Shown here: positions 13,001 through 61,739 of the stretch, piece by piece
How positions within the stretch are numbered: the stretch's first letter is position 1
Layout: each line of letters starts with the position of its first letter
Source: Pyrinomonadaceae bacterium
Lineage (GTDB): Bacteria > Acidobacteriota > Blastocatellia > Pyrinomonadales > Pyrinomonadaceae
DNA: 64,000 nucleotides
Direction of reading: 5' to 3'
Assembly (NCBI GenBank): GCA_014380365.1
Contig: JACMJZ010000032.1
Coordinates: forward strand, 1 to 64,000
Position numbers and translations under genes: made by a program
The notes under the pieces: generated by a model
What the model saw: only the letters and a program-made list of their open reading frames with translations
The model's database searches: none
What the model was told of the DNA's origin: nothing

Positions 13001-14487
13001 TTATCAACACAAATTGGCGGGCGCTCAGTAAACGGACGCGCCATTTCATACGCGTGGGCGAGCTTGAAGAGCGTCGGCTCCGACCAGTAAGCACCTAGTA
13101 GTTGAAAACCGATGGGCAGCCGGTTTGACGAAAGACCACAGGGAACGCTGATTCCCGGAATGCCTGCCAGGTTTGCTGTGACGGTGTAGATATCGTTCAA
13201 GTACATCGCGAGCGGATCGTCTGACTTCTCTCCAATCAAAAACGCAGGCGTGGGCGAGGTCGGCGTGATAATCGCGTCGCAGCTCTCGAAAGCTTTGCTG
13301 AAGTCTTCCTTGAGCAACGAACGCACTTGCTGGGCTTTCCCGTAATACGCTTCGTAGTACCCAGCGGACAACACATACGTGCCCAACATAATTCGCCGTT
13401 TAACTTCCGCCCCAAATCCTTCCTCGCGAGTTTTCCGGTACATCTGTCTGAGCTCCGGCGCGTCTTTCGCGCGATAGCCGTAACGAGCGCCATCGAAACG
13501 CGCCAGGTTTGAAGATGCCTCGGCGGTTGCGATGATGTAGTACACGGCGATGCTGTACTTCGCGTTGGGTAGTTCAACATCGACCACCTCGGCGCCCAAG
13601 TCACGATAGACATCCACGACCGCTTCGACCGACGCGCGCACTTCGGTATCCAGTCCGTCACCAAACAGCGACCGCGGAAATCCGATCCGCGCTCCCTTAA
13701 GGTCGTTCGCGTCGTTCGTCAATCCAGCGGTGTAGTTTGGAACAGGAACAGCGGCGGTGGTTGCGTCGTGGGTGTCGCGCCCGGAGACTATTCCCAGCAC
13801 GCGCGCTACGTCTTTTGTGTTTCGCCCAAATATGCCGACTTGATCCAGCGACGACGCAAACGCGACTAGTCCATAGCGCGAGTTGCGGCCGTAAGTTGGT
13901 TTCAAACCAACCACTCCGCAGAGCGCCGCCGGTTGTCGCACCGACCCGCCCGTATCTGAACCTAATGCAATAGGCACGATGCCCGCCGCAACCGCTGCCG
14001 CGGAACCGCCCGATGAGCCGCCGGGAACGCGCGATGTGTCCCAGGGATTCTTGACTGGGCCAAAGGCGGAGTTCTCGTTGGACGAACCCATGGCAAACTC
14101 GTCGCAGTTAGTCTTGCCGACGAGAACTGCGCCCGCGGCCAGCAATCGATCAATCACGGTGGCGTTATAGGGTGGATGGTAATCGCCGAGGATGCGAGAG
14201 CCGCAGGAGGTTTGCATGCCGCGCACGCAGATGTTGTCTTTGATCGCGACTGGAATTCCCGCGAGGGCAGGAACTGAGGTCCCGTCGCCATTTTGCGACC
14301 ACAAGCTCTTATCGATTTCTTCAGCGCGCGTCATGGCGCCGTTACGATCTATTTGCAAGAACGCGTTGAGGGGTTCGTTGAGCTTTTCCGCCGCGTCCAC
14401 TGAAGATTCAACAACGGCGCGCGCGGTGGTCTCGCCGCTGCTAATGCGGTTCTTCAGTGCTTCAATGTCGTCGTTGACTGGAGTCAT
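12997..14487 (-). CDS. gatA: Asp-tRNA(Asn)/Glu-tRNA(Gln) amidotransferase subunit A
   Basis: Hydrolyses glutamine and passes ammonia to GatB to convert mischarged Glu-tRNA(Gln) or Asp-tRNA(Asn). At 496 aa it is full length. The amidase-signature Ser-cisSer-Lys triad can be placed at Lys83 (AIKDN), Ser158 (GGSSGG) and Ser182 (TGGSVR). The adjacent upstream gene on this strand is gatC; gatB is not in the window. The 103-base gap to gatC holds a half copy of a palindromic repeat (family D). Confidence 0.96.
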
Positions 14488-14522
14488 TGGTTGTTAACTG
14501 CTTGCTTCGTTCCGAATTGCGA

Positions 14523-14548
14523 GCCCTCCCTGACGGTCGGGCTTCTGC
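14523..14548. repeat. Half copy of palindromic repeat family D
   Basis: Carries GCCCTCCCTGACGGTCGGGC, matching the right half of the full 77-base elements at 60245-60321 and 60499-60575. The left half is absent. It lies in the gatC-gatA gap. Confidence 0.8.
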
Positions 14549-14590: not shown

Positions 14591-14887
14591 TCACAGCACT
14601 TTCGGCACGCGGAAGTGTCCTGCAGCTGCCTCGGGGGCTTCGGCAAGGGCCAGCTCCTGGCCCAACGAAGGAGTCGCTACATCATCGCGTGCGGAATCGG
14701 TAGCTTTGCCTTCCGGCGTGAGTCCACCGAGAGAAGGCTCAACGTTGGCGATGGCGACTTCATTCAGTTGCTCGACGTAGGCAACGATGTCGGCCATCTG
14801 TGGCGCAAAAATCTTCAACTCCTCCGGCGTGATTTCCATGTGCGCCAGGTGCGCAATCTTTTCAACGTCAGTTTCGGTAATAGGCAT
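14591..14887 (-). CDS. gatC: Asp-tRNA(Asn)/Glu-tRNA(Gln) amidotransferase subunit C
   Basis: A 98 aa subunit that wraps GatA and GatB together. The N-terminus ITETDVEKIAHLAHMEITPEE and the AYVEQLNEV stretch are typical of the family, as is the C-terminal RVPKVL. The start codon lies only about 9 bases from a long GGTTTCA tandem array, and no clear ribosome-binding site is left between them, so initiation may be weak or depend on the array's structure. Confidence 0.93.
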   Translation of the reverse strand: MPITETDVEKIAHLAHMEITPEELKIFAPQMADIVAYVEQLNEVAIANVEPSLGGLTPEGKATDSARDDVATPSLGQELALAEAPEAAAGHFRVPKVL

Positions 14888-14896
14888 CTGTCTTTT

Positions 14897-14985
14897 GGTT
14901 TCAGGTTTCAGGTTTCAGGTTTCAGGTTTCAGGTTTCAGGTTTCAGATCTGAGATCTGAGATTCTAGATTTGAGATCTCAGATCC
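14897..14985. repeat. 7-bp-period array, locus P2 (two different units chained)
   Basis: About seven perfect copies of GGTTTCA are followed directly by about six copies of GATCTGA and variants (GATTCTA, GATTTGA, GATCTCA). Both halves keep the 7-base period. The GATCTGA half is partly self-complementary. It abuts the gatC start. Confidence 0.95.
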
Positions 14986-24135: not shown

Positions 24136-24234
24136 GGAGGCGAATCTGTTCTGGTGAACGGCGCGGTCTTCAAAACCGTCAGTGAGACTGTGAGAACAGG
24201 CTCAGGTAGGTTCGATTCCTACACGCCTCCGCCA
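24136..24234 (+). tRNA. selC: tRNA-Sec (anticodon TCA)
   Basis: A 99-base tRNA with encoded CCA. The acceptor GGAGGCG pairs with CGCCTCC, with an A-A at the eighth position. The D stem has 6 pairs (CTGTTC/GAACGG, TGGT loop), as in bacterial tRNA-Sec. The anticodon stem GCGGT/ACCGT holds the loop CTTCAAA, anticodon TCA at 24170-24172. A long variable arm and the T arm GTAGG-TTCGATT-CCTAC complete it. The discriminator base is G. It is flanked on both sides by 7-bp arrays. selB lies 27 kb away on the same strand. Confidence 0.96.
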
Positions 24235-47597: not shown

Positions 47598-47812
47598 CGA
47601 TCCACGAAATGACACGAAACAGGGATGAAGCGCCAAAGGCGCGGAATATAATAGCCTGGGGCAGCGCCCCCGGTAGCGAAAGCAAGAATAGCAGAGCTCT
47701 GAAGGAGCGAAATCTCGCGTTCGATGTCGAGCCTTCAGCGCTCCACGCCTTTTCCAACTTAACCCCCTGGGGCGTTGCCCCAGAGGGTTGCATCACGCGC
47801 CTTTGGCGCTTT
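47598..47812. repeat. Composite repeat: half family-H element plus a long palindrome
   Basis: GATCCACGAAATGACACG (half of family H) precedes a palindrome opening AGCGCCAAAGGCGCG and CTGGGGCAGCGCC and closing GGCGTTGCCCCAG and CGCGCCTTTGGCGCT. It ends 64 bases before bshA and gives it a false N-terminal extension. Confidence 0.85.
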
Positions 47813-59059: not shown

Positions 59060-60505
59060 ATGGTAAACATAGACGATTCCGACTCCACCACTAAATTGCA
59101 ACCGCGGCTGGCGCGACGGCTGGGGCTTTTTGACGCCACCATGATCGTGATGGGCGGCATCATCGGCTCGGGGATTTTCATGAATCCGTCCGTCGTCGCG
59201 CGTCAGGTCACGACGCCGTTTTTGATTCTTGGTGTTTGGGTGCTGGGTGGACTCGTAGCGCTAATCGCCGCCTTCATCTGGGCCGAGTTGGCGGCGCTAC
59301 GCCCTGAAGTTGGCGGCCAGTACGCTTATCTTCGCGAAGCCTATCATCCGCTGGTCGCGTTTCTCTACGGTTGGGGACTGCTGCTCGTTATTCAAACCGG
59401 CGGCATGGCGGCCGTCGCCGTAACCTTCGCACGTTATTTTCTCGAACTGACTCGCGCGCCGGTTTCAGACTCCGTCGTGGCGATGACTGCCCTCGGCGGA
59501 CTGACTTTGATCAACTGCCTTGGGGTGCGCACCGGGAGCACCGTGCAGAGCGTGCTGATGGTGTTGAAGATTCTTGCGATTATCGCGCTAATCGGATGTG
59601 GATTTTTCCTGGTCATTCCCCAGACAGGATCGGTAGGTGAAGCGATAGCTCCTGTTGCACTCCTCGACCAGCCGGCCTCATTCGATTTGATCACAGCGGT
59701 GGGCGCGGCGATGGTTCCGGTACTATTCGCTTTCGGCGGCTGGCAGACCGCCAGCTTCGTGGCCGGAGAGATACGCGATGCGCGAAAAAATCTGCCGCGC
59801 GCTCTCGTGGTCGGCGTCATCGGCGTCATCGTTCTTTACCTGGCGGTGAACTTCGTTTGCCTGCGGGTCTTGGGAGTTGCGGGACTTGCCGCCACGAGCA
59901 CGCCCGCGTCTGATGTGATGCGTTTCGCACTGGGTCCAGCCGGCGCCCGTGCCCTCGCCGCCGGAATCGCCATTTCCACGTTGGGATTCCTGAGTCAGGG
60001 AATGCTGACAGCGCCGCGGGTTTACTTTGCGATGGCTAAAGACGGATTGTTTTTCAAGAGTGTGGGACGACTACACCCGAAGACGCAGGTGCCTATCATA
60101 GCTATCGCCTTGCAGGGAATCCTCGCAATGATAATTGCGCGCTCGGGCAGCTACGATAAGATTCTGAATTACGTTGTCTCAGTAGACTTCATCTTCTTTG
60201 GGGCGACAGCCGTTTGCATTTTCGTTTTTCGCCGAAGAGAAGCGGCAGTAGCCCAACCGTTCGGGAGGGCGTCGTCCGCTGCGACGCCCCCGCACGCCCT
60301 CCCTGACGGTCGGGCCGCTGCACCGAGCGACGTGGGACGAATCACGCGAGTACCGGGACACCCGCTGACTACGTTGGCGTTCATTGCTATCTGCTGGTTG
60401 GTGGTAATCAATACTGTCTACCGGTATCCGGAGAACACTTTGATAGGCCTGGCAATCCTGGTGGCTGGGATCCCCTTCTTCTTTTTTTGGCGTAGGCGGC
60501 AGTAG
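59060..60505 (+). CDS. APC-family amino acid permease with repeat-encoded cytoplasmic loop
   Basis: A 481 aa, 12-span amino acid transporter: LGLFDATMIVMGGIIGSGIFMNP begins helix 1 with the unwound substrate-binding GSGIF; FGGWQTASFVAGEIRDARKNLPRAL is the conserved helix 6-7 loop. The substrate is undetermined. Between helix 10 and helix 11 (FRRREA ... RVPGHPLTT) relatives usually have only a few residues, but here about 28 extra residues are encoded by a 77-base palindromic repeat. A second copy of the same repeat supplies the TAG stop codon. Confidence 0.9.
   Translation: MVNIDDSDSTTKLQPRLARRLGLFDATMIVMGGIIGSGIFMNPSVVARQVTTPFLILGVWVLGGLVALIAAFIWAELAALRPEVGGQYAYLREAYHPLVAFLYGWGLLLVIQTGGMAAVAVTFARYFLELTRAPVSDSVVAMTALGGLTLINCLGVRTGSTVQSVLMVLKILAIIALIGCGFFLVIPQTGSVGEAIAPVALLDQPASFDLITAVGAAMVPVLFAFGGWQTASFVAGEIRDARKNLPRALVVGVIGVIVLYLAVNFVCLRVLGVAGLAATSTPASDVMRFALGPAGARALAAGIAISTLGFLSQGMLTAPRVYFAMAKDGLFFKSVGRLHPKTQVPIIAIALQGILAMIIARSGSYDKILNYVVSVDFIFFGATAVCIFVFRRREAAVAQPFGRASSAATPPHALPDGRAAAPSDVGRITRVPGHPLTTLAFIAICWLVVINTVYRYPENTLIGLAILVAGIPFFFFWRRRQ
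60245..60321. repeat. Palindromic repeat family D, copy 1 (in frame inside the APC permease)
   Basis: GCAGTAGCCCAACCGTTCGG then GAGGGCGTCG and the complement CGACGCCCC...CCCTCCCTGACGGTCGGGC ending GCTGC. It is 77 bases, the same size as copy 2. Confidence 0.94.
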
Positions 60506-60575
60506 CCCGACCGTTAGGGAGGGCGTCGCCTGTTACGACGTCCCTGCACGCCCTCCCTAACGGTCGGGCTACTGC
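60499..60575. repeat. Palindromic repeat family D, copy 2 (supplies the permease stop codon)
   Basis: GCAGTAGCCCGACCGTTAGG...CCTAACGGTCGGGCTACTGC, a near-perfect palindrome of 77 bases. The TAG at its fifth base (60503-60505) ends the permease gene. Confidence 0.95.
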
Positions 60576-60650
60576 CCCACAGAGGCTGGGCACAGAGAGG
60601 ACTGAAACTTGGACACTACGGGTGACGGAAGAAAGGCGGACGTTTCATAG

Positions 60651-61739
60651 ATGACTTGGAAACGCGAAGCGACCGCTTCTGAATACATGTACTGGGCCAA
60701 GACTAGTTCGCGCGCGCGCTTCAATCTGGCCACTAGCGGGCTCGCGAATTTGAAGTTGCAGGATTTGCAGGTCTCTTTAGACGATCTCGAAATGACTGGC
60801 GATACGGGCTATGGTTACGCGCCGCTGGTTGACGCGCTGGCTGAAAGGTATCGCGTCGAACGCGAGTGCGTTGTCACGGCCGCCGGCACTTCATTTGCGA
60901 ATCATCTCGCGTTGGCGGCGCTGATCGAGCCGGGCGACGAGATCTTGCTTGAAAGTCCGGCCTATGAACCACTACTCGCCACCGCGCGGTTCCTGGGCGC
61001 TCAAGTGAAACGCTTCCAACGTAAGTTTGAGAACGGGTTTCGATTAACGGCCGCTGAGATCGAGCCGCATTTAAGTCCCCAGACGAAGCTGATCGTGCTG
61101 ACTAACCTCCACAATCCCACCGGCGTTGCGGCGGACATGGGCGACTTGAAAGAAATCGGAGAGTTAGCATGGAAGCGAAATGCTCGCGTCTTAATTGATG
61201 AAGTTTATCTGGAAATGCTTTTCGAGGAATCGCCTCAAACCGCTTTTCATCTGGGCCCCGAGTTTGTTGTTACGAGCAGTTTGACTAAAGCTTTCGGACT
61301 TAGCGGCCTGCGTTGTGGCTGGATTCTCGCCGCGCCCGAACTCGCCAAGTCAATGTGGCGACTAAACGATCTCTTCGCCGCCACCCCGGTGCACGCCGGT
61401 GAACGACTGAGCGTCACCGCGCTACAACAGTTGCCGGCTATCGCCGAGCGCTCGCGCCAGCGGCTGGATGAGAATCGTGGACTGTTGAATCAGTTTCTTG
61501 ACGGGCGGGATGATCTGGAGGTAGTCCGTCCGCCATTCGGCTCGATCATGTTTCCGCGCGTAAAAGACGAGACAGCAGACAAGTTAATCGCACTGCTGCG
61601 AGAGAAGTATGAAACGTCAGTGGTGCCGGGCAGGTTCTTTGAGATGCCGGCCCATTTTCGCGTCGGGCTAGGTGGCGACAGGGAAACGCTCGCGGAAGGC
61701 CTCGATCGGTTGGGTTCAGCTCTTGACGATCTCAGGTAA
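60651..61739 (+). CDS. PLP-dependent aminotransferase, class I/II
   Basis: A 362 aa fold-type I enzyme. Visible are the PLP phosphate region AAGTSFANHLAL, the Asn-Pro motif TNLHNPTGV, DEVYLE with the Asp that contacts the pyridine nitrogen, and the Schiff-base lysine in SSLTKAFGLSGLRCGW. The N-terminal substrate arm is short. The sequence is of the aspartate/aromatic aminotransferase superfamily; the donor and acceptor cannot be assigned. It follows the APC permease on the same strand, so both may serve amino acid use. Confidence 0.88.
   Translation: MTWKREATASEYMYWAKTSSRARFNLATSGLANLKLQDLQVSLDDLEMTGDTGYGYAPLVDALAERYRVERECVVTAAGTSFANHLALAALIEPGDEILLESPAYEPLLATARFLGAQVKRFQRKFENGFRLTAAEIEPHLSPQTKLIVLTNLHNPTGVAADMGDLKEIGELAWKRNARVLIDEVYLEMLFEESPQTAFHLGPEFVVTSSLTKAFGLSGLRCGWILAAPELAKSMWRLNDLFAATPVHAGERLSVTALQQLPAIAERSRQRLDENRGLLNQFLDGRDDLEVVRPPFGSIMFPRVKDETADKLIALLREKYETSVVPGRFFEMPAHFRVGLGGDRETLAEGLDRLGSALDDLR

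Follow-up and report, generated by a model that had tools for sequence, protein, structure and literature searches.

The window, by which we mean the whole stretch of 64,000 nt of Pyrinomonadaceae DNA that was analysed, carries an amino acid permease gene followed by an aminotransferase-like ORF, and two copies of one palindromic element, D1 and D2, lie within the permease gene and at its 3' end. The nearest permeases among named records come from Pyrinomonadaceae (Acidobacteriota) MAGs. The features are as follows.

59060..60505, + strand: APC-superfamily amino acid permease (AA_permease_2), 481 aa, TAG stop at 60503-60505 (Pfam PF13520, E=6e-53; AF2 model pTM 0.83)
60242..60324 (core 60245-60321), no strand: D1, REP doublet within the permease, in frame, residues about 396-421
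60248..60270, + strand: left REP of D1, GTAGCCCAACCGTTCGGGAGGGC
60296..60318, - strand: right REP of D1, GCGGCCCGACCGTCAGGGAGGGC
60496..60578 (core 60499-60575), no strand: D2, REP doublet at the permease 3' end, source of the stop codon
60502..60524, + strand: left REP of D2, GTAGCCCGACCGTTAGGGAGGGC, whose TAG (60503-60505) is the permease stop
60550..60572, - strand: right REP of D2, the same 23-mer, inverted
60651..61739, + strand: aminotransferase-like ORF downstream of the permease, with D2 in between
14523..14545, - strand: single REP of the GAAG subtype in the gap between gatC (about 14594-14914) and gatA (13003-14493)

The repeat unit of D1 and D2 is 83 nt long and 86% identical between the two, with 12 of the 83 positions different. 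Each consists of two inverted copies of one REP (GGGGCAGTAGCCCGACCGTNAGGGAGGGC), that is, a GTAG-tagged REP doublet (REPIN/BIME), in which inverted 23-nt units GTAGCCCGACCGTNAGGGAGGGC flank a 25-nt spacer. The arms of D2 (29 nt) are 100% complementary and those of D1 (28 nt) 82%, and RNA folding gave -68 kcal/mol (z -11) for D2 and -53 (z -5) for D1. A 25-nt REP pattern with at most three mismatches matched the window four times, always within D1 or D2, and was found in none of 100 shuffles; the only other REP of the window is the isolated GAAG-type unit in the gatC-gatA gap. The initial annotation had described the same palindromic element at D1 and D2, with coordinates that proved right, and a half copy in the gatC-gatA gap, which is the unit at 14523-14545 on the minus strand. 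An Rfam search at the gathering threshold gave no family at D1 or D2; elsewhere in the window it placed a selenocysteine tRNA at 24136-24230 (RF01852, 69.7 bits) and an Acido-Lenti-1 RNA at 47629-47673 (minus strand), the latter with a score barely over that threshold.

The closest relative of D1 is D2 and vice versa, their differences are mainly transitions, and their spacers agree at 19 of 25 positions, which none of 20000 shuffles equalled. The common spacer shows that one of the two was copied directly from the other; no second pair of GTAG doublets with as good a spacer match was found. The same closeness and common spacer would also follow from a local duplication of DNA, or a duplication made by the assembly, with no mobility involved. 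We regard this as very improbable, since homology ends at the REP ends, the flanks are unrelated and about 100 further copies lie elsewhere in the genome. An assembly artefact, the objection that had been raised beforehand against the element, is unlikely given the 12 differences, the differing flanks and a position inside a 316-kb contig.

A search of the whole genome, as the initial annotation had proposed, gave 107 matches to the strict core pattern and none to the reversed pattern. When sites were called at up to three mismatches per unit, 98 element sites comprising 145 units were obtained (44 doublets, 52 singles, one triple and one direct pair), and all 44 doublets have the +- order, with none in -+. 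The consensus, CGGGGCAG[TA]AGCCCGACCGTNAGGGAGGGC, is sharp and spans CGGGGCAG to GGGC, the base following CCGT being free. A single REP folds as GCCC-GA-CC-GTTA-GG-GA-GGGC, a short stem interrupted by GA/GA, and the foot occurs as GTAG, GAAG, GTGG, CTAG or TTAG. The spacers of most GTAG doublets are mutually unrelated, so copying may often involve one REP alone; some [CT]TAG doublets have a short spacer motif in common, and copying of a whole doublet is shown for D1/D2 only. The pattern is patchily distributed, being found in 53 of the 119 genomes compared from this taxonomic family, with 107 copies here, 0-7 in congeners, 165 in genome G106 and 15-153 in genus g29. In G106 the spacing of the doublets hardly varies (about 62 or about 100 nt between the starts of the units), and their interior is conserved in part.

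D1 is read in frame and codes for 26 residues (396-421) in the loop between TM10 and TM11. The insert in the loop between helices 10 and 11 is thus as the initial annotation had it, though with 26 residues and not about 28. The linker from FRxR to VPGHP has 37 residues here vs 12-17 in orthologues of the same genus, which are without the REP and represent empty sites, a net gain of 20-25 residues. Counted with anchors, the linker runs from 16 to 47 residues across a wider set of orthologues, and a few distant ones have a linker as long as the present one without any REP, so the short linker that had been ascribed to relatives holds for the genus and not for all of them. The alignment of orthologues, likewise proposed beforehand, does establish an insertion relative to the genus; its exact edges and the frame-restoring net change are not placeable, because linker length varies even within the genus. 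No target-site duplication was seen at D1 or D2. Such a duplication is not expected from HuH single-strand transposition, as established for IS200/IS605.

The variation in linker length indicates that the permease loop tolerates length change. The loop containing D1 is also predicted to be disordered, a point that had been suggested for checking: in the AlphaFold2 model residues 401-413 and 418-429 have pLDDT below 50, with confident helices on either side. The persistence of D1 might then be explained by the REP sequence being free of stops in most reading frames and by its landing in a disordered, length-tolerant loop. Read in the D1 frame, 9 of the 11 codons that differ between D1 and D2 are non-synonymous, so there is no sign of constraint on the D1 peptide; as D2 is non-coding, this comparison only says that constraint is not visible. 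D1 is most likely a neutral, tolerated extension of the linker.

D1 does not stand alone among in-frame copies. G114 (genus g29) carries a REP in this permease loop too, as well as a doublet at the stop codon of the gene. Its congeners have neither of them, and the loop REP of this second genus is an independent insertion. Four further genes hold in-frame REPs, namely transketolase, penicillin-acylase-like, acyl-CoA-ligase-like and RlmD-like genes, and alignments to PDB structures show additional residues where the REP lies, or close by, in the ligase-like and RlmD-like genes, with the acylase-like gene less clear there. In this genome the transketolase linker has a perfect REP, and a unit of another repeat family, ATCAGAACCGGGAGCGGTAGCGACCGGGT, directly adjoins this GTAG REP (L110 from about 2061, minus strand; G000:C34:16460, G000 being this genome); inverted pairs of the other family are also present at C5:93779/93832 and C27:21417/21481. 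Five congeners have a degenerate REP-like stretch in the transketolase linker, agreeing at 21-23 of 27 positions and coding for AVARPLGRV or nearly so, where random 110-nt windows nearly all reach 12-17 of 27 only. Since this stretch remains in five genomes with almost no other REPs, linkers derived from REPs can persist. We tentatively speculate that REPs are a recurrent source of linkers in Pyrinomonadaceae, the permease loop and the transketolase linker being hit repeatedly or by two or more REP families and decayed copies persisting as conserved in-frame peptides.

Both the retention of AVARPLGRV at one position of the transketolase linker and the independent arrival of a REP in the permease loop of G114 could also be taken as signs that D1 is a functional, selected protein segment, an exapted linker rather than a tolerated passenger. 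We find this unlikely for D1, considering the mostly non-synonymous differences between D1 and D2, the predicted disorder of the loop and the 16-47 residues seen among orthologues.

At the other end of the gene, the GTAG of D2 gives the permease its TAG stop at 60503-60505, one frame off from D1, in keeping with the initial annotation, which had read the stop in a different frame from D1. In 49 of 93 distinct relatives the start of the aminotransferase overlaps the permease stop as ATGA; here the conserved YMxWAK motif of the aminotransferase is found 181 nt downstream of the permease stop, and D2 stands between the two genes and breaks the overlap. Translational coupling of permease and aminotransferase would be expected to be lost through D2. 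With both a stop codon and a strong 3' hairpin supplied at the permease end, and with the overlap broken, D2 probably changes either this coupling or the stability of the mRNA 3' end. Long palindromes of other sequence directly follow the permease stop in G107, G106 and one Verrucomicrobia MAG.

Stop codons supplied in this way recur in the genome. A simple codon-usage caller was applied to 406 kb around known copies, and by this measure 5 of the 98 sites lie clearly in frame inside genes, the intragenic count that had also been called for, and 23 of 98 hold or touch a stop codon; a 152-aa ORF at C7:328880 was rejected as an intragenic site because the ORF is weak. Eight sites end an ORF by the TAG of GTAG, as D2 does, seven of them with a -GQ C-terminus. 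One could ask if insertion is directed, with a target sequence or replication context favoured by the RAYT in the permease loop and at the 3' end. The present genome and G114, which are of different genera, each carry a loop REP and a doublet at the stop, and in G117 a palindrome of another family lies just past the permease stop. Many genome copies sit at gene ends generally, however, and tolerance together with survivorship accounts for repeated survivors, which makes directed insertion an unlikely explanation.

For the tolerated insertion of a mobile REP, the candidate mover is a RAYT. In G118 inverted REPs of a closely similar variant stand close on both sides of a RAYT gene, and in G046 a homologue is bracketed by GTAG-subtype REPs with the same core as D2. 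One homologue of the G118 RAYT was found in the present genome, the assembly of which is 95% complete (C9:187-672, 52% identical); it is preceded by one REP and followed by three in inverted orientation, of the [CT]TAG subtype and not the GTAG of D1/D2. The motifs are NHFH...YVLYGQ in G118 and NHVH...YVLLGQ at C9, with T-H-x-H instead of N-H-x-H in G046. It seems most likely that such a HuH/Y1 transposase recognises the GTAG-foot hairpin as single-stranded DNA and spreads the REP family, and we infer from the bracketing that the RAYT moves the REPs. Against this stand the [CT]TAG REPs around the C9 gene, which are not the exact GTAG subtype, and G106, where no Y1/RAYT gene was detected beside 165 REP copies and which is absent among the G118 RAYT matches listed.

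Other genes were considered as movers and set aside. This genome has seven Y1_Tnp genes, and those of the NF047646 type that were examined lie near other palindromes; a truncated IS200-like gene (C8:100458) lies more than 1 kb from two copies, too loose for a cognate mover, and near the IS200-like genes of relatives no matching REP was seen. Further RAYT-type genes occupy four loci of this genome, of which at least two have separate palindromes of their own on both sides.

The family agrees closely with the GTAG REPs as presented in the main text of Di Nocera 2013 (PMC3733652), which have the GTAG tag, an imperfect hairpin, inverted dimers and a location close to gene 3' ends, as well as TAG stops derived from the tag and dimers inside ORFs coding for 20-30 residues, the last two reported from other phyla, with Opitutus terrae richest in intragenic GTAG copies. 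Here too we find an imperfect palindrome of 20-40 nt with a 5' GTAG foot, dispersed in high copy, with doublets in one orientation, mostly intergenic near 3' ends and with RAYTs flanked by the same REP (G046, G118, and a sister subtype at C9). The present elements differ in their host, a member of the Pyrinomonadaceae, and in a foot that is GTAG, GAAG, GTGG or [CT]TAG by subtype; the core of the D1/D2 REP is not printed in that main text. As in the REPINs of Bertels and Rainey (2011, PMC3116915) and in BIMEs, two inverted REPs form one element, and one RAYT is expected per REP type (PMC3116915); unlike REPINs, the GTAG doublets here have mostly unrelated spacers. The RAYTs resemble the class 3 TnpA-Y1 HuH proteins (Quentin 2018, PMC6006769) in N-H-x-H and Y----Q motifs, a length of about 170 aa, presence in Acidobacteria and a gene bracketed by many-copy hairpins. 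The foot reported for class 3 is CnGA, in contrast to GTAG/GAAA/[CT]TAG here, so this likeness is one of motif only.

The in-frame palindromic insertion had been compared with the Rickettsia palindromic elements (RPEs). The comparison is apt for palindromic inserts in frame in protein genes, a likeness and not a membership, drawn from descriptions rather than sequences; a GTAG-tagged doublet with a matching RAYT family belongs with REP/REPIN. RPEs have another tag, no dedicated transposase known and a host of another phylum, and the main text of PMC3733652 describes RPE-4 and RPE-6 as CGTC REPs, a type without dedicated transposase. That the element is a relative of RPEs is therefore extremely improbable. 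As intragenic and stop-codon GTAG REPs were described in 2013, the present locus is a case of a known kind and not an RPE-like novelty.

Taken together, it is highly probable that D1 and D2 are REP doublets of a family scattered over the genome and most likely spread by a RAYT, D1 as a tolerated insertion and D2 as a stop codon and 3' hairpin. With this locus, GTAG REPs that are linked to RAYTs and have intragenic copies are now seen in a family of Acidobacteriota, the Pyrinomonadaceae, as well, and a likely cognate transposase family can be named for them. It also provides natural parallel cases of a mobile hairpin entering the same protein loop in separate lineages; with these one can test directly if REPs insert blindly or are guided to a site, and if selection ever acts on the peptides that REPs encode.
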